Source: a virus
Length of the DNA stretch: 21,893 nucleotides
IMG/VR virus record: IMGVR_UViG_3300030108_002586
Coordinates: 440-22,332 of that record
Direction: 5' to 3' (one strand)
Shown here: positions 1,433 through 19,662 of the stretch, piece after piece
Layout: every line of letters starts with the position of its first letter
Numbering within the stretch: the first letter of the stretch is position 1
Program-made: the position numbers and the translations under genes
Notes under the pieces: generated by a model
Databases searched by the model: none
The model's input: the letters and a program-made list of their open reading frames with translations, nothing else
What the model was told of the DNA's origin: nothing

Positions 1433-2380
1433 ATGGCAGGTTTTGGATATAGAATATTAGGCTTTGGAGCAGGTTGCGCAGGACCCGCTTACATTGAAGC
1501 AACCGGTGGTAATGAAACTATTACTGACGGCGATATTAAAATTCACATTTTTACAGGAGACGGAAACCTTTGTGTAACTTCTAAAGGAAGAGCAGCTGGT
1601 TCAAATCAAGCAGATTACATGGTCGTTGCCGGCGGAGGTGGCGGAGGCCAAGGAACCGGCGGTGGCGGCGGCGGAGGAGGATTTAGACTATCCTCTGGAA
1701 CAGCCTCTGGTTGTTATAGCGTACCATCTCCTTTAGGTGGTTGCGTTCCAGGAATAGGTGTAACATTAGGAGCAATGCCAATCACGGTTGGTGCTGGAGG
1801 AACTGGTAGACAACCTGGAGGACCTGCTGGAACTCTTGGTGGAAATTCAGTTTTTGGTAGTATAACATCAACTGGTGGAGGTGTTGGTAGCGGAGGAGAC
1901 GGAACTCCAAATGGACCAACTAATGGTAGACCAGGAGGTTCAGGCGGAGGTGCACACTTAAATAATCCAAGTTTCGGAAATGGAAATGATCCCCCAACAA
2001 GTCCCCCTCAAGGTAATAATGGAGCACCATTCTCAGGTTTTGTAGGTGGTGGCGGCGGTGGAGCCGGTCAAGCCGGTAGTGGTAAAACTGGAGGAAATGG
2101 AGCTTCTGCAGCAATAGCACCCGCACCTTCAACTGGTTCAGGGGACAATCAAGTATATTCCGGTGGTGGCGGCGGTGGTTCTGACCAAACTTCTCAAAAC
2201 GGAGGAAATGGTGGACCTGGCGGCGGAGGCCGAGGCGGAAATAGACAAAACTCACCTACTGCAGGAGCAGCTGGAACAGCTAACACTGGTGGCGGTGGCG
2301 GAGGAAGAGGTTTACCCTCTGGTATAGGTAACACTGGTGGTAGTGGACTTGTAGTAGTAAGGTATAAATTTCAAAATTAA
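1433..2380 (+). CDS. Poly-glycine adhesin-like tail-tip protein
   Basis: A 315-residue protein that is strikingly glycine-rich from about residue 66 to 300, with repeated runs such as VVAGGGGGG, GGGGGGGGF, GGGGGG and GGPGGGGRGG. The lead-in IKIHIFTGDGNLCVT followed by DYMVVAGGGGGG, and the closing GLVVVRYKF, match the layout of phage/bacterial Gly-rich domains in which a beta-strand frame holds a polyglycine core, reminiscent of the polyglycine-sandwich adhesins of T-even phages. It lies directly after the fibre gene (AAGGAG at 1424-1429 before the ATG), so it is probably a receptor-binding tip or adhesin. Several Pro-Gly-Gly sites (RQPGGPAG, GRPGGSGG, GGPGGGG) are present and are noted because hydroxylase genes follow. 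GGC/GGT/GGA runs locally raise the GC content. Confidence 0.65.
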   Translation: MAGFGYRILGFGAGCAGPAYIEATGGNETITDGDIKIHIFTGDGNLCVTSKGRAAGSNQADYMVVAGGGGGGQGTGGGGGGGGFRLSSGTASGCYSVPSPLGGCVPGIGVTLGAMPITVGAGGTGRQPGGPAGTLGGNSVFGSITSTGGGVGSGGDGTPNGPTNGRPGGSGGGAHLNNPSFGNGNDPPTSPPQGNNGAPFSGFVGGGGGGAGQAGSGKTGGNGASAAIAPAPSTGSGDNQVYSGGGGGGSDQTSQNGGNGGPGGGGRGGNRQNSPTAGAAGTANTGGGGGGRGLPSGIGNTGGSGLVVVRYKFQN

Positions 2381-2382
2381 TT

Positions 2383-2850
2383 ATGGCACACTTTGCAAAA
2401 ATATCAGAAGAAAATATAGTTTTAGCGGTGCACGTTGTTGCTGATGAACACTGCACAAATAAAGATGGTGTTGAAACTGAAGCTGAGGGTCAATACTGGT
2501 TAGAAAAATGTCATGGTTGGCCACAACAACTTTGGAAAAAAACTTCTTATAACACAATTAATAATACACATACATTAGGTGGCACACCTTATAGAGGAAA
2601 CTATGCAGGCATAGGTTATATTTGGGATCCTGAAAATGAAATATTTTTATGTCCAAAACCAGGGCCTGAGTGGACAAAAGATGTAGCCAATGCTAAATGG
2701 GTATCACCACTTGGTGAAGCACCTGCATTAACAGCAGAACAACAAGCACAAAACGAAGCAGACACTCATTCTTGGCATTATGAATGGGACGAAGCTGCAT
2801 ATCAAGCAGATAATACAACTGGTTGGGTGTTGACAGATTTATTCGCATAA
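2383..2850 (+). CDS. Conserved small tail-associated protein
   Basis: A 155-residue protein beginning MAHFAKISEENIVLAVHVV. It has a Trp/Tyr-rich middle (WLEKCHGWPQQLWKKTSY, near residue 39) and the signature RGNYAGIGYIWDPENEIF around residues 72-89. The ending is rich in W, E and D. This pattern (MAHFAK..., then NYAGIGY.YD, then a Pro/Trp stretch) recurs next to tail genes of marine cyanophages and pelagiphages, where it is generally left as a hypothetical protein. It has no membrane segment or catalytic motif. It starts two bases after the preceding stop without an obvious ribosome site, suggesting translational coupling to the adhesin gene. A tail-fibre accessory or chaperone-like role is inference from position only. 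Confidence 0.6.
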   Translation: MAHFAKISEENIVLAVHVVADEHCTNKDGVETEAEGQYWLEKCHGWPQQLWKKTSYNTINNTHTLGGTPYRGNYAGIGYIWDPENEIFLCPKPGPEWTKDVANAKWVSPLGEAPALTAEQQAQNEADTHSWHYEWDEAAYQADNTTGWVLTDLFA

Positions 2851-2878: not shown

Positions 2879-3382
2879 ATGCATAAGAAAGTATTAAGTG
2901 AACAAACAATATATTTTGGCGACGTTAAAATGCCTAAAGGTTTTGACATAGATCCTTTTGAAATGTCAAAAGCTATTTTTGAAAGTTCTTACACCGGAGA
3001 AGACATGCCTTTTTTTCGAACTTGGGACAGACTCAACAAATATATTGTTGAACATTTGCGTGTTAAATATGATTTAAATTTAGTTAATAAAAAAACATGG
3101 GGTAAAATGTATTTTCCTAATGTTAAAACAAATCCAACTACAGAAGTTGATCCTGTAGATTTGAGAAATTCTCCTGACTTTGTTTGTCTATATGGTGTTA
3201 ATGCTGTGGATTGTAATGTTAGAATTTATTATGATGATAATAGAAAAAAAGGTAGAAGTTGGGATATGCCACTAACACATAATAAATTTATAATGTTTCC
3301 AGCAACTAATCTTTATTATATAGAAAATAATCAAAAAGATTTAGCAAATTTTGTTCAAATCATAACGTATGAACTTATCTAA
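2879..3382 (+). CDS. DSBH-like protein, possibly an inactive oxygenase relative
   Basis: A 167-residue protein at the head of the oxygenase run. Its second half (FVCLYGVNAVDCNVRIYYDD near residues 100-119, then KFIMFPATNLYYIENN and NFVQIITYELI) has the strand-turn-strand rhythm of the C-terminal half of a double-stranded beta-helix. The FPATNLYY stretch falls where active family members have FPS..xH. No HxD/E and no distal His-Arg pair is visible, so if it belongs to the fold it has lost or never had the iron site. Proteins with this RSWDMPL...FIMFP style occur in marine phages as hypothetical proteins. It overlaps the next gene by 14 bases, implying coupled expression. It might be a regulatory or structural partner of the enzymes. 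The fold call is inference, and a virion role is not excluded. Confidence 0.5.
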   Translation: MHKKVLSEQTIYFGDVKMPKGFDIDPFEMSKAIFESSYTGEDMPFFRTWDRLNKYIVEHLRVKYDLNLVNKKTWGKMYFPNVKTNPTTEVDPVDLRNSPDFVCLYGVNAVDCNVRIYYDDNRKKGRSWDMPLTHNKFIMFPATNLYYIENNQKDLANFVQIITYELI

Positions 3383-4007
3383 TTATTACTGGTATTTTAC
3401 ATCTGCCTTACCACCTAGATTGTGTGATGATATAATTAAATATGCATTATCTAAATCTGAGTCTATGGCGAGAACAGGAGGTTACGATAACGAAAAATCT
3501 TTATCTCAAGATCAAATAAAAAATATGCAAAGAAAAAGAAAATCAGATTTAGTATGGCTTGATGATACTTGGATATATAAAGAATTACATCCATATGTTC
3601 TTGATGCTAATAAAAATGCAGGTTGGAATTTTGAGTGGGATGCAAGTGAAAATATACAATTTACAAAATATAAACTTAATCAATATTATGATTGGCATTG
3701 TGATAGTTGGAATAAACCTTACAATAAACCAAAAAATATTCATACACATGGTAAAATAAGAAAACTTTCTATGACGTGTCAACTAACAGATGGGTCTGAA
3801 TATAAAGGTGGGGAATTAGAATTTGATTTTAGAAACTATGATCCACATATGAGAGACGAAGCTATACACAGAGTACAATGTAAAGAAATATTACCTAAAG
3901 GATCTATTATCGTGTTTCCAAGTCATGTATGGCATAGGGTAAAACCCGTAACTGCAGGGACAAGATATTCATTAGTTATGTGGAGTCTTGGACAGCCATG
4001 GAAGTAA
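3369..4007 (+). CDS. 2OG-Fe(II) oxygenase, prolyl-hydroxylase (PKHD) type
   Basis: A 212-residue protein with a complete 2-oxoglutarate/Fe(II) dioxygenase signature: YYDWHCDSW gives the iron ligands H110 and D112. LSMTCQLTDGSEYKGGELEF is the typical strand pair after them. PKGSIIVFPSHVWHRV supplies the distal ligand H189, and R199 in TRYSLVMWSLG is the expected 2-oxoglutarate carboxylate-binding residue. Length and layout match PKHD/prolyl-4-hydroxylase-like enzymes, which couple 2-oxoglutarate decarboxylation to hydroxylation of a protein or small molecule. The start is an ATG overlapping the previous gene by 14 bases. The sequence is very A+T-rich: the line 3661-3720 has about 14 G or C in 60. 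Activity is well supported by residues; the substrate is unknown. Confidence 0.88.
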   Translation: MNLSNYYWYFTSALPPRLCDDIIKYALSKSESMARTGGYDNEKSLSQDQIKNMQRKRKSDLVWLDDTWIYKELHPYVLDANKNAGWNFEWDASENIQFTKYKLNQYYDWHCDSWNKPYNKPKNIHTHGKIRKLSMTCQLTDGSEYKGGELEFDFRNYDPHMRDEAIHRVQCKEILPKGSIIVFPSHVWHRVKPVTAGTRYSLVMWSLGQPWK

Positions 4008-4627
4008 AAGAATATTTTAAGACTCCAATATGTATAGAGAACAAACCAGAGTTTGTAAAAAGTTTAAATAAAGCTTCTGATAAATATATTAAAGAAGCTA
4101 AAGCTAGACAAAAAGATCATATAAAAAAACACGGCGATTTTGGAACTTCTTATCATTCAACTCCTCTTACTTTAGATAATGATTTTTTAGATTTTAGAAA
4201 TTATATAGGTCAAAAGTCTTGGGATTTTTTAGATTGGCAAGGTTATGATATGTCAGAATATCAAACAATGTTTAGCGAACTATGGGTACAGGAGTTTGCT
4301 AAAAAGGGTGGTGGTAATCACTCTGCACACATACATTGGAATCAACATGTATCTGGTTTTTACTTTTTAAAAGCTAGTGATAAAACATCATATCCCATTT
4401 TTCACGAACCAAGAACTGGTGCTAGAACCACTAAATTAAAAGTAAAAAAAACATCAGATCTTACATATGGAACTGAATTGGTTCAATTTAAAGTGCAGCC
4501 TGGAGTATTAATAATGTTTCCAAGCTATTTAGAACATGAATTTGCTGTAGACTATGGTAAAGAACCATTTAGATTTATACACTGGAACATACAAGCTGTG
4601 CCAAAAGGAATGGCTAAAGATGTTTGA
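3998..4627 (+). CDS. Putative 2OG-Fe(II) oxygenase, HxxHxH type
   Basis: A 209-residue protein from the ATG at 3998 (a GTG 18 bases upstream is also in frame but would lengthen the overlap with the previous gene from 10 to 28 bases). After ELWVQEF comes H108-S-A-H111-I-H113, then VSGFYFL, the strand that in this family follows the first metal ligands. PGVLIMFPSYLEHEF gives the distal His at H180, and R192 in PFRFIHWNIQ is the likely 2-oxoglutarate anchor. The pattern resembles the 'putative 2OG-Fe(II) oxygenase' family (Pfam PF13759-like), in which HxH replaces the usual HxD. The closest relatives in this window by eye are the genes at 6298 and on the minus strand at 19150. Substrate unknown; family confidence is good, exact ligand assignment less so. 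Confidence 0.8.
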   Translation: MEVKEYFKTPICIENKPEFVKSLNKASDKYIKEAKARQKDHIKKHGDFGTSYHSTPLTLDNDFLDFRNYIGQKSWDFLDWQGYDMSEYQTMFSELWVQEFAKKGGGNHSAHIHWNQHVSGFYFLKASDKTSYPIFHEPRTGARTTKLKVKKTSDLTYGTELVQFKVQPGVLIMFPSYLEHEFAVDYGKEPFRFIHWNIQAVPKGMAKDV

Positions 4628-5099
4628 GGTTAAAGATAATTTTTTAGATGTTACTGAACATGTTGCTTTAAAAAATATAATGGAGTCAGAAACATTTCCA
4701 TGGTATTTTAACAAATATAAAGTGCAACATAAACCTAATAAATTATTTCATTATCAGTTTTGTCATATATTTTATAATAATAAAATTAATTCTGACTATT
4801 TTAATGATTTAGAGCCCATATTAAAAAAACTTAAATATAAATCTTTGATTAGAATTAAAGCTAATTTAAATCCAATAAGCAATAAACTCGTTGAGTTTGA
4901 TGAACACGTAGATCAATTTTTTAAATGTAAAGGAGCATTATATTATTTAAATAGTAACAATGGTTATACTATGATAGGAGATCATAAAATAGAAAGTAAA
5001 AGTAATAGAGTTGTTTTATTTGATGCTAGTCAAACTCATTATGGAACTAATTCTACAGATTGTAATAATCGAATGGTAATAAATTTTAATTATTTTTAA
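4620..5099 (+). CDS. 2OG-Fe(II) oxygenase (small HxD type, paralogue of 7386-7859)
   Basis: A 159-residue protein from the ATG at 4620, which overlaps the preceding stop by eight bases. An in-frame upstream start at 4554 would lie deep in the previous gene and lacks the MxxxDNFL opening seen in the paralogue. Ligands are H96-V-D98 in FDEHVDQF, H140 in ASQTHYGTNSTD and R151 in NNRMVINFNYF. It aligns along its whole length with the protein at 7386: DNFL start, FPWYF/FPYYF, NSDYF, LKKL, GALYYLN/GAIFSLN and TNCTD/TNSTD. Such compact oxygenases are frequent in marine phages. A prolyl-hydroxylase-like fold is inferred. DNA is extremely A+T-rich here: about 8 G or C in the 60 bases of 4741-4800. Confidence 0.82.
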   Translation: MFEVKDNFLDVTEHVALKNIMESETFPWYFNKYKVQHKPNKLFHYQFCHIFYNNKINSDYFNDLEPILKKLKYKSLIRIKANLNPISNKLVEFDEHVDQFFKCKGALYYLNSNNGYTMIGDHKIESKSNRVVLFDASQTHYGTNSTDCNNRMVINFNYF

Positions 5100-5102
5100 A
5101 AC

Positions 5103-5681
5103 ATGAATTTAAAAAAACATTATTTTCCTAAAGATAGTTTTATTCAAGGATGGTACATTCCAGAAAAAATTTGTGATGATTTAATTAATTATTATAATAA
5201 AAATAAACATAAAACCTCCAGTGGTAAATGTTTTATAAAAGGAGAATTAGTAAATAATAACGATCATAAACAATCTATTGATTTAAGTTTAGGAAGAGAT
5301 AATTTTGATAAGGGTGTTGCTGGATATAGAGTTTATTTACAAGAAGTTTTAAATTTATATATGAAAGAGTATCCTGAAGTAAATCAACTGCCCAGATTTG
5401 ACGTAGAAGATATTAATATTCAATGGTATCCTAAAAATGGTGGTTTTAAAAAGTGGCACTATGAAAGAGGTGATACTTTTAATTTTTATAGAAATTTAGT
5501 TTTTATGACATATTTAAATGACATAGAAAATGGAGGGACTCATTTTAAATATCAAAATTTAACTTCGCCTGCAAAAAAAGGTTTAACTTTAATCTGGCCT
5601 CCAGATTGGACGCATACACATAAAGGTCAAATAGTTGACAAAGAAAAATTTATAGCTACAGGATGGTATAGACTTATATGA
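5103..5681 (+). CDS. 2OG-Fe(II) oxygenase, HxE type
   Basis: A 192-residue protein with IQWYPKNGGFKKWHYERGD, where H119 and E121 would bind iron; Glu replaces the common Asp, an accepted variation in the superfamily. NLVFMTYLNDIENGGTHF follows as the central strand pair with the GGTxF turn typical of prolyl-hydroxylase-like enzymes. LIWPPDWTHTHKG gives the distal His (H171 or H173) and K182 in KFIATGWYRLI is the probable 2-oxoglutarate-binding base. The opening FIQGWYIPEKICDDLINYY is an N-terminal helix common to these proteins. It begins three bases after the preceding stop and overlaps the next gene by four (ATGA). The HxE class makes it distinct from its neighbours, suggesting a different substrate. 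Confidence 0.85.
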   Translation: MNLKKHYFPKDSFIQGWYIPEKICDDLINYYNKNKHKTSSGKCFIKGELVNNNDHKQSIDLSLGRDNFDKGVAGYRVYLQEVLNLYMKEYPEVNQLPRFDVEDINIQWYPKNGGFKKWHYERGDTFNFYRNLVFMTYLNDIENGGTHFKYQNLTSPAKKGLTLIWPPDWTHTHKGQIVDKEKFIATGWYRLI

Positions 5682-6301
5682 GTTTTAAAAAAAATAAATA
5701 TGCAGTAATTAAACAAGCAATATCAAAAGATTTAGCAACTTTTATTGCAAATTATTTTTGCATGCAAAAACAAGTTTATGATACTTGTAGCCAAGCAAGA
5801 TACTTTTCACCATTTGAAAATATAATTGGATTTTATGAGGGAGAAAATGCACAAATACCAAATACTTATTCTCAATATGCTAATGTGGCTATGGAAACGC
5901 TATTGTTAAAATGTCAGCCAGATATGGAAAAAATAACAGGGTTAAAATTAACTCCTGCTTATACCTACGCAAGAATTTATAAAAAAGGTGATGAATTAAA
6001 ACGACACAAAGATAGATTTAGTTGTGAGATATCTACTACTATGAATTTAGCAGGTGATGATTGGCCTATATATTTAGAGCCCTCAGGAGAAAAAGGTAAA
6101 AAAGGTGTCAAGGTAGATTTAAAACAAGGAGACATGTTAGTATATAGGGGATGTGATTTAGAACATTGGAGAAAACCATTTAAGGGTAAAGAATGTGTGC
6201 AAGTTTTTTTACACTACAATAATATTAAAACACCAGGAGCTAAAGAAAATATGTATGATAAACGTCCACATTTAGGACTGCCTGCGTGGTTTAGAAAATG
6301 A
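5678..6301 (+). CDS. 2OG-Fe(II) oxygenase, HxD type with non-standard 2OG-binding end
   Basis: A 207-residue protein with YARIYKKGDELKRHKDR, giving iron ligands H110 and D112, then CEISTTMNLAGDDWPIYLEP as the following strands. DMLVYRGCDLEHWRKPF supplies H163. The final strand reads CVQVFLHYN: where relatives carry Arg or Lys about ten residues after the distal His, this protein has Cys173, with K169 and K171 nearby. So 2-oxoglutarate must be held differently or by those lysines. This EHWR.PF...QVFLHYN ending is a recognisable phage subfamily. A tail after about residue 181 (TPGAKENMYDKRPHLGLPAW) is not part of the core fold. It joins its neighbours by ATGA overlaps on both sides. Substrate unknown. 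Confidence 0.82.
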   Translation: MSFKKNKYAVIKQAISKDLATFIANYFCMQKQVYDTCSQARYFSPFENIIGFYEGENAQIPNTYSQYANVAMETLLLKCQPDMEKITGLKLTPAYTYARIYKKGDELKRHKDRFSCEISTTMNLAGDDWPIYLEPSGEKGKKGVKVDLKQGDMLVYRGCDLEHWRKPFKGKECVQVFLHYNNIKTPGAKENMYDKRPHLGLPAWFRK

Positions 6302-6861
6302 TACCTTTTAATTTTCCTATATTAAAAAATAAACTTAAAGAAAACTTTAAAATAAAAAAACAATTATTAGAGCTAATAGATAAACAAAAATCAGGTTCTT
6401 TAAAACAAAATGATGATTATTTTACAGATAGTATCTCAAGAGTAGATTGGGACAGAAGACACGATACAGAAAGAGAGTGGGTTAAATTAGTAGGTCCTCA
6501 TTTACAAAAACATTTTACAGAAGAAGTAAAAAAGATAGGTTTATCTAAAATACAAATTTTTGAGTTATGGTTTCAACAATATGGCAAAGGAGATACACAT
6601 GGTTGGCACGTTCATGGTCATAACTTTACAGGTGTATATTATTTAGAGTTTGGAAAGAATTCTCCTAAGACTCAAATAGTAGAGCCTTTATCTTTAAAAA
6701 TTATTGATGTAGATGTAAAACAAGGAGACGTTATTATATTTCCAAGTATGTTTATACACAGAGCGCCCCCTTCTCAAACTAAAAAAAGAAAAACAATTAT
6801 ATCATTTAATTTTAATGCAGACTATGTGCATGATGATTTTTTAAAAATTTTAAGAACGTGA
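6298..6861 (+). CDS. Putative 2OG-Fe(II) oxygenase, HxxHxH type
   Basis: A 187-residue protein. IFELWFQQYGKGDTHGWHVH contains H101, H104 and H106, followed by FTGVYYLEF. KQGDVIIFPSMFIHRAPP gives distal H154, and R164 in KKRKTIISFNFN is the likely 2-oxoglutarate anchor. The overall pattern matches the PF13759-like group. By eye it is clearly homologous to the minus-strand protein at 19150-19662: both have KNSPxT, a GD-I-I-x-P-x-F-I-x-H block and KKR-x-IISF-x-F. The first ~60 residues are charged and probably helical. The gene overlaps both neighbours by four bases (ATGA upstream, GTGA downstream), so it is translated as part of a coupled chain. Substrate unknown. Confidence 0.82.
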   Translation: MIPFNFPILKNKLKENFKIKKQLLELIDKQKSGSLKQNDDYFTDSISRVDWDRRHDTEREWVKLVGPHLQKHFTEEVKKIGLSKIQIFELWFQQYGKGDTHGWHVHGHNFTGVYYLEFGKNSPKTQIVEPLSLKIIDVDVKQGDVIIFPSMFIHRAPPSQTKKRKTIISFNFNADYVHDDFLKILRT

Positions 6862-7385
6862 AAACATTAATAGTTGATAATTTTTTAGAAGACCCTGACA
6901 AAATAAGAAAATTTGCTTTGTCTTTAAACTATAGAAAAAGAAATGAACATGAAAATTTTGAAGGCATGAGAGGTCCATTAATTAAAGATGTTAATATTAA
7001 TATGCACAATAAAATATGTAATAAAATTATATTTGAGTATTATAGAAAAAATCCAATATCATTTATAGCTGATTTACAATTTCATAAGACACAAGAAAAA
7101 GATAGAAGAGATTTTCAATTTATGTATAATAGAGTGCATCAAGATAATGGTGTAATAGCAGGCATGGTATATTTAACACCTAATGCACCAATTAATTGTG
7201 GCACGCAAACATATCAAGAGATTATAATTAATAAAAAATATGAACCTGATATTAAAATAGGTAATATATATAATAGATTAGTTTTATACCCAGCTGAATA
7301 CTTTCATTCAGCAATGGATTATTTTGGAGATAACAAAAATAATCGTCTAGTTATGTTATTTTTTTTAATGGAGGTTAAATTTTAA
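6858..7385 (+). CDS. 2OG-Fe(II) oxygenase-like protein, HQD type
   Basis: A 175-residue protein starting with GTG in a GTGA overlap with the previous stop. MKTLIVDNFLEDPDKIRKFA is a typical phage oxygenase opening. NRVHQDNGVIAGMVYLTPNA gives ligands H94 and D96, with the Asn-Gly turn and the strand after it; GTQTYQ follows. LVLYPAEYFHSAMDYFGDN gives the distal H150, and R163 in NNRLVMLFFLMEVKF is the likely 2-oxoglutarate contact. It resembles the DUF6445-type group of uncharacterised oxygenase-like proteins in order of elements (HxD, YLTP, GT, FHSA..FG). The gene ends exactly where the next begins. Very A+T-rich: about 10 G or C in the 60 bases of 7021-7080. Function unknown beyond probable hydroxylation. 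Confidence 0.78.
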   Translation: MKTLIVDNFLEDPDKIRKFALSLNYRKRNEHENFEGMRGPLIKDVNINMHNKICNKIIFEYYRKNPISFIADLQFHKTQEKDRRDFQFMYNRVHQDNGVIAGMVYLTPNAPINCGTQTYQEIIINKKYEPDIKIGNIYNRLVLYPAEYFHSAMDYFGDNKNNRLVMLFFLMEVKF

Positions 7386-7859
7386 ATGCAAGTTATAGAC
7401 AATTTTTTACCTGAAGAAGAATTTAAAAAAATACAAGAACTTTTTATGTCAGCAGAATTTCCTTATTATTTTAATAATACGGTTGCTGATCCTACTGATA
7501 TTAGAAATTTTTATTTTACTCACACTATTTATGATAATAATGTTGTTAATAGTGACTACTTTGAAATGGTAAATCCTTTATTAAAAAAATTAGACACGGT
7601 GTTTTTAAGAAGAGTGAAAGTAAATTGTTATACTAGAAATGAAAAAATAATAAAACACAAAGCTCACAAAGATTTACCCATGCCTCACAAAGGAGCCATA
7701 TTTTCTTTAAATACTTGTGATGGTGGAACATATATAGGTAAAAAATTTATAAAATCTGTGGCTAATCGTGTGCTATTATTTAACCCCTTTGTTCTCCATT
7801 CAAGCACTAACTGCACAGATGAAAAAGCTAGATTTAATATCAACATAAATTACAAGTAA
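7386..7859 (+). CDS. 2OG-Fe(II) oxygenase (small HxD type, paralogue of 4620-5099)
   Basis: A 157-residue protein with the DNFLPEEEFKKIQELF opening. Ligands are H94-K-D96 in HKAHKDLPMPHKG, distal H138 in FVLHSSTNCTDEKARF, and R149 in the same block. NRVLLFNP before the distal His and the NININYK end match the paralogue at 4620 (NRVVLFDA, INFNYF). The ATG directly follows the previous stop, and GGAGG at 7370-7374 within the upstream coding sequence is a good ribosome site. It is the last gene of the oxygenase run; a 43-base gap with promoter-like A+T boxes follows. Two members of one subfamily four genes apart suggest an old duplication or separate captures. Substrate unknown. Confidence 0.84.
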   Translation: MQVIDNFLPEEEFKKIQELFMSAEFPYYFNNTVADPTDIRNFYFTHTIYDNNVVNSDYFEMVNPLLKKLDTVFLRRVKVNCYTRNEKIIKHKAHKDLPMPHKGAIFSLNTCDGGTYIGKKFIKSVANRVLLFNPFVLHSSTNCTDEKARFNININYK

Positions 7860-7902: not shown

Positions 7903-10113
7903 ATGCTACAGAAAATAGGATTTCAACCAGGTATTAATAAACAAATCACACCAACCACAGCAGAGGGTCAATGGACTGATTGTGATAATGTTCGTTTTAG
8001 ATATGGTACACCTGAAAAAATAGGTGGTTGGAATCAATTAGGAACAGTAAATGAAAATGAATTAACGGGAGCAGGAAGAGGTCTTCATCATTTTGTTAAT
8101 AGCTTAGGCAGAAGATATGCTATTATAGGCACTAATAGAATTTTATATGCATATTCAGGAGGTGTATTTTATGACATACACCCTATTAAAAGTACAACCA
8201 CACTTACTAGTGCATTTACCACAACTAATGGCTCAACGACAGTAACAATAACTTTTTCAAGTGGTCATGGTATTAATCCACAAGATATTATTTTATTAGA
8301 TAATTTTACAACCATCACAGGATCTAATTTTAGCTCATCTGATTTTGATGATAAAAAATTTATGGTAACGTCTGTTCCTTCAACTGAAACTATAACTATT
8401 ACAATGCCTTCAGCAGAAACAGGATCTGGTGCAACAACATCAGGTGGCATAAGAGTTCAACATTATTATACAGTTGGATCTGCTGTTCAAGAAAAAGGTT
8501 TTGGTTGGGGTCTTGGATCATGGGGAGGAGAGGCTTCGAATCCAGTTACAACAACTTTAAATGGAGCATTATTAGATGATACAGCCGGAACAGGTGGTTC
8601 AGGGACATCTATTACGTTGACAGACACATCACAGTTTCCAAGTTCAGGTACAAATTTTATTCAAGTGGGTAATGAAGAAATATCTTACACGGGTGTATCT
8701 GGAAATGATTTAACAGGTATTACTAGAGCGGTTAGAAATTCTACAAGATCAGCACACTCAAGTGGTGCAACTGTTAAGAACTCATCTGATTATGTTGCAT
8801 GGGGCGAAGCAGCATCTGGTGACTTAGTATTAGAGCCAGGCATGTGGTCACTTGATAATTTTGGTGACAAAGCAATTTGTTTAATACACGATGGTGCAGT
8901 TTTTTCATGGGACTCTAGTTTATCAAATGCAACAGATACAAGAGCTACAATTATAACGGGTGCACCTACTGCATCAAGACACATGGTTGTATCAACACCG
9001 GATCGTCACTTAGTATTTTTTGGAACAGAAACAACCATCGGTAATACAGCAACACAAGATGATATGTTTATTAGATTCTCAGATCAAGAAGATATAAATA
9101 CGTATACACCCACGGCAACCAACACAGCTGGTACACAAAGGTTAGCTGATGGATCACAGATTAGAGGAGCTATAAGAGGTCGTGATGCTATTTATGTTTG
9201 GACAGACACTGCTTTATTTACACAACGTTTTGTTGGTCAACCTTTTACATTTGCTTTCTCACAAGTGGGAACTAACTGTGGACTTGTTGGGCAGAACGCA
9301 TGTGTCGAAGTAGATGGTGCTGCGTATTGGATGTCTGAAAATGGTTTCTTTAGATATGCTGGTAAATTAGAATCATTACCATGTTTAGTAGAGGATTTTG
9401 TTTTTGATAATATAAATATAGAATCTGGTAATCAAATGATTTCTGCGGGTTTAAATAATTTGTTTGGTGAAGTAATATGGTTTTATCCTGAATCTGCGTC
9501 ACAAGTTGTAAATAGAATGGTTTGTTATAATTATTTTGATTCTACACCACAAAGACCAGTATGGACTGTGGGTTCACTTGCTAGAACAATGTGGCAAGAC
9601 TCTGCAGTATTTACTAAACCCCATGCACTGGAATATGATGCAGATACGGATACATCGCACGATGTTGTAGGTAACACAGAAGGTAGAACAAGTTACTATG
9701 AGCACGAAACAGGGACAGATCAAAATAGAAACGGAACTATAACTGCTATAACTTCAAATATATTGTCTGGAGATTTTGATATCACACAAGCAAGAACACA
9801 AGGTGGAGGACAAGCTACAGGTGGTGCAACATTTGGAGGGGATGGTGAATTTATAATGAAGATTAGAAGATTTATACCCGACTTTATATCTCAAACTGGA
9901 TCTACTAGAGTTACATTAAATTTACGTAATTTTCCAAATGATACAGCAGCTAGTTCATCATTAGGTCCATTTGATATTACATCAAGCACACAAAAAGTAG
10001 ATACACGTGCAAGAGCAAGAGCAATAGCATTAAAAGTAGAAAACACAGGGGCTAGTCAAGAATGGAAATTAGGAACTTTTAGATTAGACGTGCAACCAGA
10101 TGGACGTAGATAA
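7903..10113 (+). CDS. Large tail protein (tail-tube/stabilisation type)
   Basis: A 736-residue protein opening with MLQKIGFQPGINKQITPT, then DNVRFRYGTPEKIGGW. This start (short lead, PGI, then DNVRFR-x-G-x-P-x-x-IGGW) recalls the P22 gp10-like phage stabilisation proteins and functional equivalents of T7 gp12. The body is a long series of beta-rich blades without membrane or enzymatic motifs; RGAIRGRDAIYVWTDTALF around residues 424-442 and VEVDGAAYWMSENGFFRYAG around 468-487 look like propeller blades of such tail proteins. The C-terminal ~80 residues form another beta domain. It is followed by structural genes in TAATG overlap. Ig-like Thr/Ser repeats (about 105-180) may be an inserted domain. 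I am fairly sure it is a virion tail component, less sure of the exact family. Confidence 0.6.
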   Translation: MLQKIGFQPGINKQITPTTAEGQWTDCDNVRFRYGTPEKIGGWNQLGTVNENELTGAGRGLHHFVNSLGRRYAIIGTNRILYAYSGGVFYDIHPIKSTTTLTSAFTTTNGSTTVTITFSSGHGINPQDIILLDNFTTITGSNFSSSDFDDKKFMVTSVPSTETITITMPSAETGSGATTSGGIRVQHYYTVGSAVQEKGFGWGLGSWGGEASNPVTTTLNGALLDDTAGTGGSGTSITLTDTSQFPSSGTNFIQVGNEEISYTGVSGNDLTGITRAVRNSTRSAHSSGATVKNSSDYVAWGEAASGDLVLEPGMWSLDNFGDKAICLIHDGAVFSWDSSLSNATDTRATIITGAPTASRHMVVSTPDRHLVFFGTETTIGNTATQDDMFIRFSDQEDINTYTPTATNTAGTQRLADGSQIRGAIRGRDAIYVWTDTALFTQRFVGQPFTFAFSQVGTNCGLVGQNACVEVDGAAYWMSENGFFRYAGKLESLPCLVEDFVFDNINIESGNQMISAGLNNLFGEVIWFYPESASQVVNRMVCYNYFDSTPQRPVWTVGSLARTMWQDSAVFTKPHALEYDADTDTSHDVVGNTEGRTSYYEHETGTDQNRNGTITAITSNILSGDFDITQARTQGGGQATGGATFGGDGEFIMKIRRFIPDFISQTGSTRVTLNLRNFPNDTAASSSLGPFDITSSTQKVDTRARARAIALKVENTGASQEWKLGTFRLDVQPDGRR

Positions 10114-18685: not shown

Positions 18686-19158
18686 ACCTTTCACGAAATT
18701 TTACTCTCTCAGAGTTAACCAAATCGGACACTGCGATCCGTAAAGGGATTAATAATAACCCTAACGCAGAACAAATAGAAAAATTAAAAGCGTTGTGTGA
18801 AAATATTCTTCAACCGGTACGTGACCATTTTGGCAGAGTTAAGGTGACGAGTGGTTTTCGTAGCGTAGAATTATGTGAAGCCATCGGTAGCTCAGCCAGA
18901 TCGCAGCATGCCCGTGCAGAAGCTGCAGATTTTGAATGTGTTGGCGTGGACAACGCTGAACTATTTGATTGGATTAAAGATAATCTCACACCGGATCAGC
19001 TAATCTTAGAGTTTTATACTCCGGGTGAGCCTAACAGCGGGTGGATTCATTGCTCATGGATCCCGGACCAACCAAGAGCATCATTCTTACACGCATACAG
19101 GTCAGAAGGTAAAACTAAATACAAACCAATATTAGGAAAAGCAAAAGATTTAGTTTAG
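18682..19158 (+). CDS. Endolysin, M15 family peptidase
   Basis: From the ATG at 18682 the product is 158 residues; it fits family length and has the ATGA overlap with the holin-like gene. An in-frame upstream start at 18628 would read through the holin gene and add a non-family extension. Motifs of the zinc D-Ala-D-Ala carboxypeptidase-like peptidases: NFTLSELTKSDTA opening, TSGFRS at 56-61, SQHARAEAADFE with zinc ligands H76 and D83, and GWIHCSW with H123; E110 in DQLILEF lies on the path to the catalytic site. It cleaves peptide bridges of the host murein to release virions. GC content is about half in the lines 18841-18960 (61 of 120 bases), far above the oxygenase genes, so it may have a separate origin. 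Confidence 0.88.
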   Translation: MNLSRNFTLSELTKSDTAIRKGINNNPNAEQIEKLKALCENILQPVRDHFGRVKVTSGFRSVELCEAIGSSARSQHARAEAADFECVGVDNAELFDWIKDNLTPDQLILEFYTPGEPNSGWIHCSWIPDQPRASFLHAYRSEGKTKYKPILGKAKDLV

Positions 19159-19662
19159 GTGTTGACCTAGTAAAAAATCAAAAGATATAATTCTTTTTTT
19201 AAAAGTTAAAAAGTTTACTTCACTATAATGAAATATAAATTTAGGAACTATTATTATATCACCTGCTTTAACTTTAGGAGTATATAACAAACTTTTATCT
19301 TTTTCATTGTTCCAAGGCTGTATGTATGTAGTTCTTGGCGAGTTTTTGTGAAGGTCTAAATATAAAATACCTGCAAACCCTATTGAACCATGATTGTGTG
19401 GAGAATGAAAATCTCCTTTTTCATATGTCACTGACCAAGTATCTGTAAGAGTTATACCATTTGGATTAATTTGACTTAATTCTTCACCAAAAATTTTAGA
19501 AAAGGGACGTGATAATTTACCATTACCTCTGTTACTATTAAAATTTCTTTGTCTTTCTTCTGGGTATTTTTTTAGTTCTTTAATTATTAATTTTTTCTTC
19601 TTTAAAAAATTTTTTGTTTTTATTGTTAGAAATTCTATTTTAAATGGTGTTGTTATATCCAT
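19150..19662 (-). CDS. Putative 2OG-Fe(II) oxygenase, HxxHxH type, minus strand
   Basis: A 170-residue protein. DTWSVTYEKGDFHSPHNHGS carries H86, H89 and H91, with FAGILYLDL after them. KAGDIIIVPKFIFHYSEVNF gives the distal His H145, and KKRIISFDF holds the probable 2-oxoglutarate anchor (K156/R157). It is homologous by eye to the island gene at 6298 (shared KNSPxT, GDxII-x-P-x-F-I-x-H, KKR-x-IISF) and so belongs to the PF13759-like group with HxH in place of HxD. It follows the helicase gene with a 10-base overlap, implying co-translation, and its end overlaps the converging endolysin gene by nine bases. Being paired with a helicase rather than with tail genes suggests another role from the island members. 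Substrate unknown. Confidence 0.8.
   Translation of the reverse strand: MDITTPFKIEFLTIKTKNFLKKKKLIIKELKKYPEERQRNFNSNRGNGKLSRPFSKIFGEELSQINPNGITLTDTWSVTYEKGDFHSPHNHGSIGFAGILYLDLHKNSPRTTYIQPWNNEKDKSLLYTPKVKAGDIIIVPKFIFHYSEVNFLTFKKRIISFDFLLGQHLN

Follow-up and report, generated by a model that had tools for sequence, protein, structure and literature searches.

Clustering of 2-oxoglutarate (2OG) oxygenase genes in HTVC023P-type pelagiphages has already been published (Wittmers et al. 2022, PMC9599517): eight 2OG families that are not orthologous, in many cases located close together and next to a 'ferrochelatase', were treated together with it as partner auxiliary metabolic genes (AMGs). Among other marine phages, the cyanophage S-SCSM1 carries a total of 24 2OG genes (PMC9602691), and the Phold paper independently found PHD-like 2OG proteins to be widespread (PMC12774648). 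Here, a 22,332-base virus fragment (IMG/VR record IMGVR_UViG_3300030108_002586) was explored over its positions 440–22,332, a stretch of 21,893 nucleotides referred to as the window, in which positions 2879–7859 are filled by nine consecutive plus-strand open reading frames, named g1–g9. On sequence evidence, g2–g9 are catalytic-looking members of 2OG/Fe(II)-oxygenase-type families with a double-stranded beta-helix (DSBH) fold, and g1, judging from its model, is probably a pseudo-oxygenase. The source record is, by protein similarity and gene content, a fragment of an HTVC023P-type pelagiphage, with a structural protein 46–50% identical to those of HTVC023P and HTVC027P and a g1-g2-g3-g6 block that also occurs in HTVC023P. 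Pelagiphages infect the most abundant bacteria of the ocean.

A preliminary description had reported nine coupled same-strand genes in this region, and its coordinates, overlaps and gaps hold, with g3 starting at 3998 and g4 at 4620. From g1 to g9 the junctions measure −14, −10, −8, +3, −4, −4, −4 and 0 bases, and none of g2–g9 is frame-broken. The ratio of nonsynonymous to synonymous substitution rates (dN/dS) against the nearest relative lies below 1 in all nine genes (0.07–0.56; g1, 0.25), which indicates that g1–g9 are under purifying selection. A promoter and terminator scan gave no signal clearly exceeding shuffled sequence.

The basis for assigning the DSBH fold varies among the families. 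Four proteins match Pfam models above the cut-off, namely g2 (3369–4007; 2OG-FeII_Oxy_3, PF13640, E = 3.5e-14; phrog_61), g3 (3980–4627, the start being ambiguous between GTG at 3980 and ATG at 3998; 2OG-FeII_Oxy_5, PF13759, E = 3.9e-13; phrog_81), g5 (5103–5681; PF13640; phrog_61) and g7 (6298–6861; PF13759; phrog_81). For g4 (4620–5099, with an alternative ATG start at 4554; PF13640 below the cut-off, E = 1.8e-4) and g9 (7386–7859; no Pfam match) the basis is their shared family, phrog_274, 14 of whose 24 members match PF13640. The assignment of g8 (6858–7385; phrog_1644) is indirect, through DUF6445, matched above the Pfam cut-off, and the similarity of its profile to that of g4/g9 in hhalign (89%). 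For g1 (2879–3382; no convincing Pfam or PHROG match) and g6 (5678–6301; phrog_2954, no Pfam match) it comes from AlphaFold2 (AF2) models and Foldseek. Profile-profile comparison (hhalign) with g2 was weak for g6 (1%) and for g4/g9 (2%), so it is fold and motifs that tie these families to g2; four family profiles searched against PDB sequences brought up no relatives.

In family alignments of related loci, HxD...H is kept in g2 (H110xD112...H189...R199, invariant), g4, g6 (H110xD112...H163), g8 (H94xD96...H150...R163, invariant) and g9 (H94xD96...H138), and HxE...H in g5 (H119xE121...H173), giving these six families an apparently complete iron triad. The families of g3 (H117xH119...H186, R198) and g7 (H104xH106...H154) instead have an invariant HxH...H without the acidic second ligand, such that their metal site and reaction do not appear predictable from the canonical triad and their chemistry is uncertain. 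The earlier count of eight oxygenases is confirmed, with the qualification that the g3 and g7 motif is not the canonical carboxylate triad. A tenth gene of the superfamily, missed at that stage, lies outside the array (g10, 19150–19662, minus strand; 2OG-FeII_Oxy_5/phrog_81), overlaps the end of a helicase gene and likewise has HxH where HxD/E is expected; the equivalent site in a related locus (L043) holds a g4-type gene.

The protein described previously as a related-looking ninth member is indeed a predicted DSBH protein, yet without catalytic residues. The AF2 model of g1 is confident (predicted local distance difference test [pLDDT], 89.2) and Foldseek places 3bvc, PHD2 and viral 2OG proteins closest to it. 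No histidine is conserved in 15 aligned family members, the residues at the aligned positions are not ligands, and neither the iron triad nor the 2OG-binding Arg/Lys was found. Because a DSBH fold is predicted and every iron ligand is absent, g1 is read as a probable pseudo-oxygenase. In each of the 16 relatives scored it comes before g2, never following it, and it stands immediately upstream of g2 in 14 of 17 islands, the window included; it was not found in the T4-like cyanophage arrays of S-RSM4, S-SM1, Syn9 and S-CREM1. The g6 model (pLDDT 91.4) is closest in Foldseek to prolyl 4-hydroxylases (P4Hs), the best matches being the Pseudomonas putida P4H (PPHD) with EF-Tu, PHD2 and the Chlorella-virus vCPH, with AlkB further down the list.

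Arrays of this type have been partly hidden by the names given to member families, namely 'ferrochelatase', 'DNA endonuclease V' and 'minor coat protein'. The g6 family, present in 156 phage records, mostly cyanophages, goes by 'ferrochelatase' in PHROGs and in the annotation of many phages. Ferrochelatases are about 300 amino acids long and g6-family proteins 180–256; no ferrochelatase domain was matched at E ≤ 1 by 24 homologues or by the S-PM2, Syn9, P-SSM7, Sf-FR1 and Mosig proteins, a PDB sequence search gave no ferrochelatase, and the predicted fold is P4H-like. By its modelled fold, g6 is a prolyl-hydroxylase-like DSBH oxygenase and the 'ferrochelatase' label is unsupported; an earlier correction of the label was not found in the literature searched. 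For the g4/g9 family, DNA endonuclease V (denV) was not matched in Pfam, where 2OG models or nothing were obtained instead, and proteins named denV in S-SM1 and P-SSM7 match the g9 profile (E, 1e-47 to 1e-49). The g8 family is labelled 'minor coat protein', a role rejected or left unsupported by Pfam and hidden Markov model (HMM) searches, and the 'minor coat' gp52 of Syn9 is a DUF6445 protein with a weak 2OG match. These misleading labels have led to the most variable cargo being interpreted as genes for haem or iron functions and for DNA repair. Should its members be DSBH oxygenases in a fibre-linked cassette, auxiliary-gene claims built on 'ferrochelatase' would need revision, including its partnership with 2OG oxygenases (PMC9599517) and the naming of phrog2954 as a seasonal AMG (PMC11561400).

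The g6 family also occurs outside arrays. In the replication modules of Syn30 (L119), S-CAM22 (L125) and P-SSM7 (L092), single copies directly follow a dam DNA methyltransferase gene and have clamp-loader genes on either side, a conserved second location for the family. In the bacterium Brasilonema sp. CT11, a g6-family gene (L109, 7959–8630) lies between a condensation/adenylation non-ribosomal peptide synthetase (NRPS) gene and an AMP-ligase/polyketide synthase (PKS) gene, where it is likely a tailoring enzyme of a natural-product cluster.

Using the phrog_3287-type structural protein as an anchor, 80 IMG/VR loci were gathered, 51 of them complete islands. An array was present at the fibre/structural junction in 48 of the 51, with 0–11 DSBH genes (median, 4) and eight or more in six islands. 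Order was kept across these loci, g2 preceding g6 in 61 of 65 and g3 preceding g6 in 33 of 36, while accessory members varied and included tryptophan halogenase, carbamoyltransferase and sulfotransferase genes. One island (L033) is nearly the same as that of the window (g3, 91% and g7, 95% identical). The array is therefore typical of a recurrent pattern and not unique, and the view that it was exceptional has to be withdrawn: HTVC023P-type pelagiphages commonly have similar arrays, of up to 11 genes, and S-RSM4, S-SM1, S-CREM1 and Syn9 have them too, in addition to the clustering reported in 2022 and the gene number of S-SCSM1. The companion suggestion of diverse DSBH oxygenases that were not recently amplified is supported, at the fibre/tail junction, and the proposed search for the same ordered cluster in other genomes found its order conserved in relatives.

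Several loci showed further features. The g2 and glycine-rich fibre genes of L016 and L054 are 99% identical and the adjacent structural protein just 81%, a contrast from which it follows that fibre and array move as a block. Oxygenase arrays were also located on phage-like contigs in bacterial assemblies (L096, L100, L101, L103, L106 and L108; up to 11 genes in L106), of which those of Maricaulis and Flavobacteriaceae look like binned phage contigs, and on a phage-like contig from a SAR11 single cell (AG-422-I02; L093), supporting a SAR11 host. A T4-like contig binned as Porticoccaceae (L107, 11045–15346) has a DUF6445-type g8 gene close to a tandem pair of tryptophan halogenases; g2-g6 lie a few kb upstream.

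Upstream of the array in the window lie a fibre protein, a glycine-rich tail-fibre/adhesin (1433–2380, plus strand; Gly_rich_2, PF21722, E = 2.5e-12) and a small protein, U (2383–2850, plus strand; phrog_7759, E = 1.4e-31); a virion structural ('stabilization') protein (7903–10113, plus strand; phrog_3287, E = 1.8e-96) forms the 3' border. The samples available for this linkage are small and related, and the following counts are descriptive. Among the T4-like isolates, 13 arrays were inspected, and 11 had a glycine-rich fibre gene within 10 kb; the three non-array g6 copies, in the replication modules of Syn30, S-CAM22 and P-SSM7, had none. PF21722 was confirmed in six of seven glycine-rich proteins tested, including that of the window, and stands beside the arrays of S-SM1, S-RSM4, S-CREM1, Syn9 and HTVC008M, while U-like genes (HMM) were detected in S-SM1, S-RSM4, P-RSM4 and HTVC008M and are common to the podovirus and myovirus versions. 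Across the pelagiphage loci, the number of DSBH genes rises with glycine-rich content (Spearman, 0.47), and the three islands with zero oxygenase genes (L046, L059 and L080) also have no glycine-rich fibre, its place being taken by SPRY and DUF7483 fibre modules (duplicated in L046).

We tentatively favour, at something short of an even expectation, a reading of the island as a modular cassette of small oxidative enzymes for tailoring the glycine-rich virion adhesin encoded next to it, the proposed substrate. The array genes would be expressed late in infection, and several enzymes of prolyl-hydroxylase-like fold would add hydroxyl groups to side chains of freshly synthesized fibre, while g1 may assist g2 as a partner with no catalysis of its own. 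Among relatives, a halogenase, O-carbamoyltransferase or sulfotransferase may then elaborate the same target, the hydroxyl groups being available to the latter two, and exchange of enzymes would vary the chemistry of the receptor-binding surface. Such stepwise elaboration agrees with the halogenase, carbamoyltransferase and sulfotransferase genes that share the arrays of relatives; these are what the multi-step cassette proposed in the preliminary description would lead one to expect, although that interpretation as a whole is supported in part only. The nearness of the g6 and g1 models to protein-proline enzymes (PPHD/EF-Tu, PHD2 and vCPH), among others, was counted in favour of adhesin tailoring, and the Brasilonema homologue is consistent with a peptide-like substrate and equally with small-molecule chemistry. 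A wider version, to which we attach less confidence, is that marine phages may carry exchangeable post-translational pathways (DSBH hydroxylation, then halogenation, carbamoylation or sulfation) that diversify the receptor-binding adhesin, with a pseudo-oxygenase as assembly partner. If true, host range or resistance to degradation would vary at a further level that the adhesin sequence does not encode, and the long-standing puzzle of why marine phages have so many 2OG oxygenases would be open to mass spectrometry on cultured phages.

Several observations weigh against adhesin tailoring. The inverted arrays of L009, L024, L030 and HTVC027P have no strongly glycine-rich neighbour. Fibre-oxygenase covariation is high over the full locus set (partial Mantel, 0.69–0.74) but falls to 0.23–0.26 once only loci with the full gene set are considered (r = 0.23 between fibre and g2), and U, which lies nearer, gives r = 0.52 with the fibre, the gradient that linkage alone predicts; covariation being no stronger than this, it was not counted as functional evidence. 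Tryptophan and tyrosine are not enriched in the fibres of halogenase-bearing islands. Fibre histidine content was associated with the halogenase (p = 0.001, among 24 uncorrected tests), the correlations for histidine, arginine and glutamine being uncorrected for shared ancestry. Further, fibre regions are general recombination hotspots, and the P4H fold is also used on non-protein substrates.

The same enzymes could instead act during infection on a small molecule, a lipopeptide or a host-surface glycan or lipid, perhaps altering the cell surface, from a fibre-side site that merely tolerates cargo. A mix of 2OG oxygenases, FAD halogenase, carbamoyltransferase and sulfotransferase resembles natural-product tailoring, a g6 homologue sits in the Brasilonema NRPS/PKS cluster, and a glycosyltransferase adjoins the array region in HTVC023P and HTVC027P. 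However, no scaffold builder (NRPS, PKS or leader of a ribosomally synthesized and post-translationally modified peptide) was seen in the islands examined, and the fibre neighbour persists while enzyme content changes locus by locus; we regard this alternative as somewhat unlikely. We are also doubtful, slightly more so, that there is no joint pathway and that unrelated oxygenases with different targets gather independently in a recombination hotspot, a scenario in keeping with the highly variable content (0–11 genes), the low G+C content of the array (26–30%) compared to its upstream (37–44%) and downstream (37%) flanks, covariation that tracks linkage, and the lone g6 copies beside dam. Independent gathering is at odds with a g1-g2-g3-g6 core order kept across diverged genomes and in the different phage HTVC033P, as well as with a content drawn so strongly from a single superfamily of enzymes, with the tight coupling of the genes and with the purifying selection on them.

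Modification or repair of DNA or nucleotides by AlkB/TET-type enzymes, as the endonuclease V labels imply, is improbable: those labels are unsupported, the proteins group with g4/g9, and the array lies among virion and not replication genes, even if AlkB appears lower in the g6 Foldseek list and DNA repair has been suggested for cyanophage 2OG proteins (PMC3037559). Least probable of all, we would give little credence to manipulation of host metabolism (nitrogen signalling) through consumption of 2-oxoglutarate, a hypothesis published for cyanophages (PMC3037559); host iron transport does rise during HTVC027P infection, which the authors tie to its 2OG oxygenase (PMC12753301), but one efficient enzyme would suffice, and many diverged families, a pseudo-oxygenase, halogenases and fibre linkage would be left unexplained.

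The literature searched gave no account of contiguity with conserved order, of g1 as a pseudo-oxygenase, of new labels for the three families or of a fibre-U-array layout common to podoviruses and myoviruses. The closest arrays in isolates belong to T4-like cyanophages (S-RSM4, S-SM1, Syn9 gp45–gp54 and S-CREM1_72–80), where about nine DSBH genes stand in a row, mostly of the same families as in the window (g2/g3/g5/g7/g8/g9/g6), with g6 last and a Gly_rich_2 fibre alongside. These carriers are myoviruses, and some add a JmjC gene and two halogenases: S-RSM4 and S-SM1 have nine genes each, Syn9 nine counting its JmjC gene, plus two halogenases, and S-CREM1 is annotated with eight 2OG genes and a JmjC gene. 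In other phage lineages fewer genes are found than in the window, with g2-g3-g6 in HTVC033P and five in a row, g2-g7-g7-g5-g6, in HTVC008M. A flavin adenine dinucleotide (FAD) halogenase is attributed to a cyanophage by Gkotsi 2019, at least as that work is cited in PMC10452541. PF04820 genes, comparable to phage FAD halogenases, lie inside the arrays of relatives and are absent from the window. The cyanophage enzyme is reportedly named VirX1. Similarity to the prolyl 4-hydroxylases PPHD (acting on EF-Tu), PHD2 and PBCV-1 vCPH lies in the predicted fold, together with HxD...H for g6, at only 8–16% identity and without catalytic residues in g1. The HTVC023P-type AMGs of the same phage type were presented as non-adjacent genes with a haem enzyme for a partner (PMC9599517); by comparison, the genes here form an unbroken row, the predicted fold makes the 'ferrochelatase' a DSBH protein too, and the fibre, halogenase, carbamoyltransferase and sulfotransferase context of the arrays is described.

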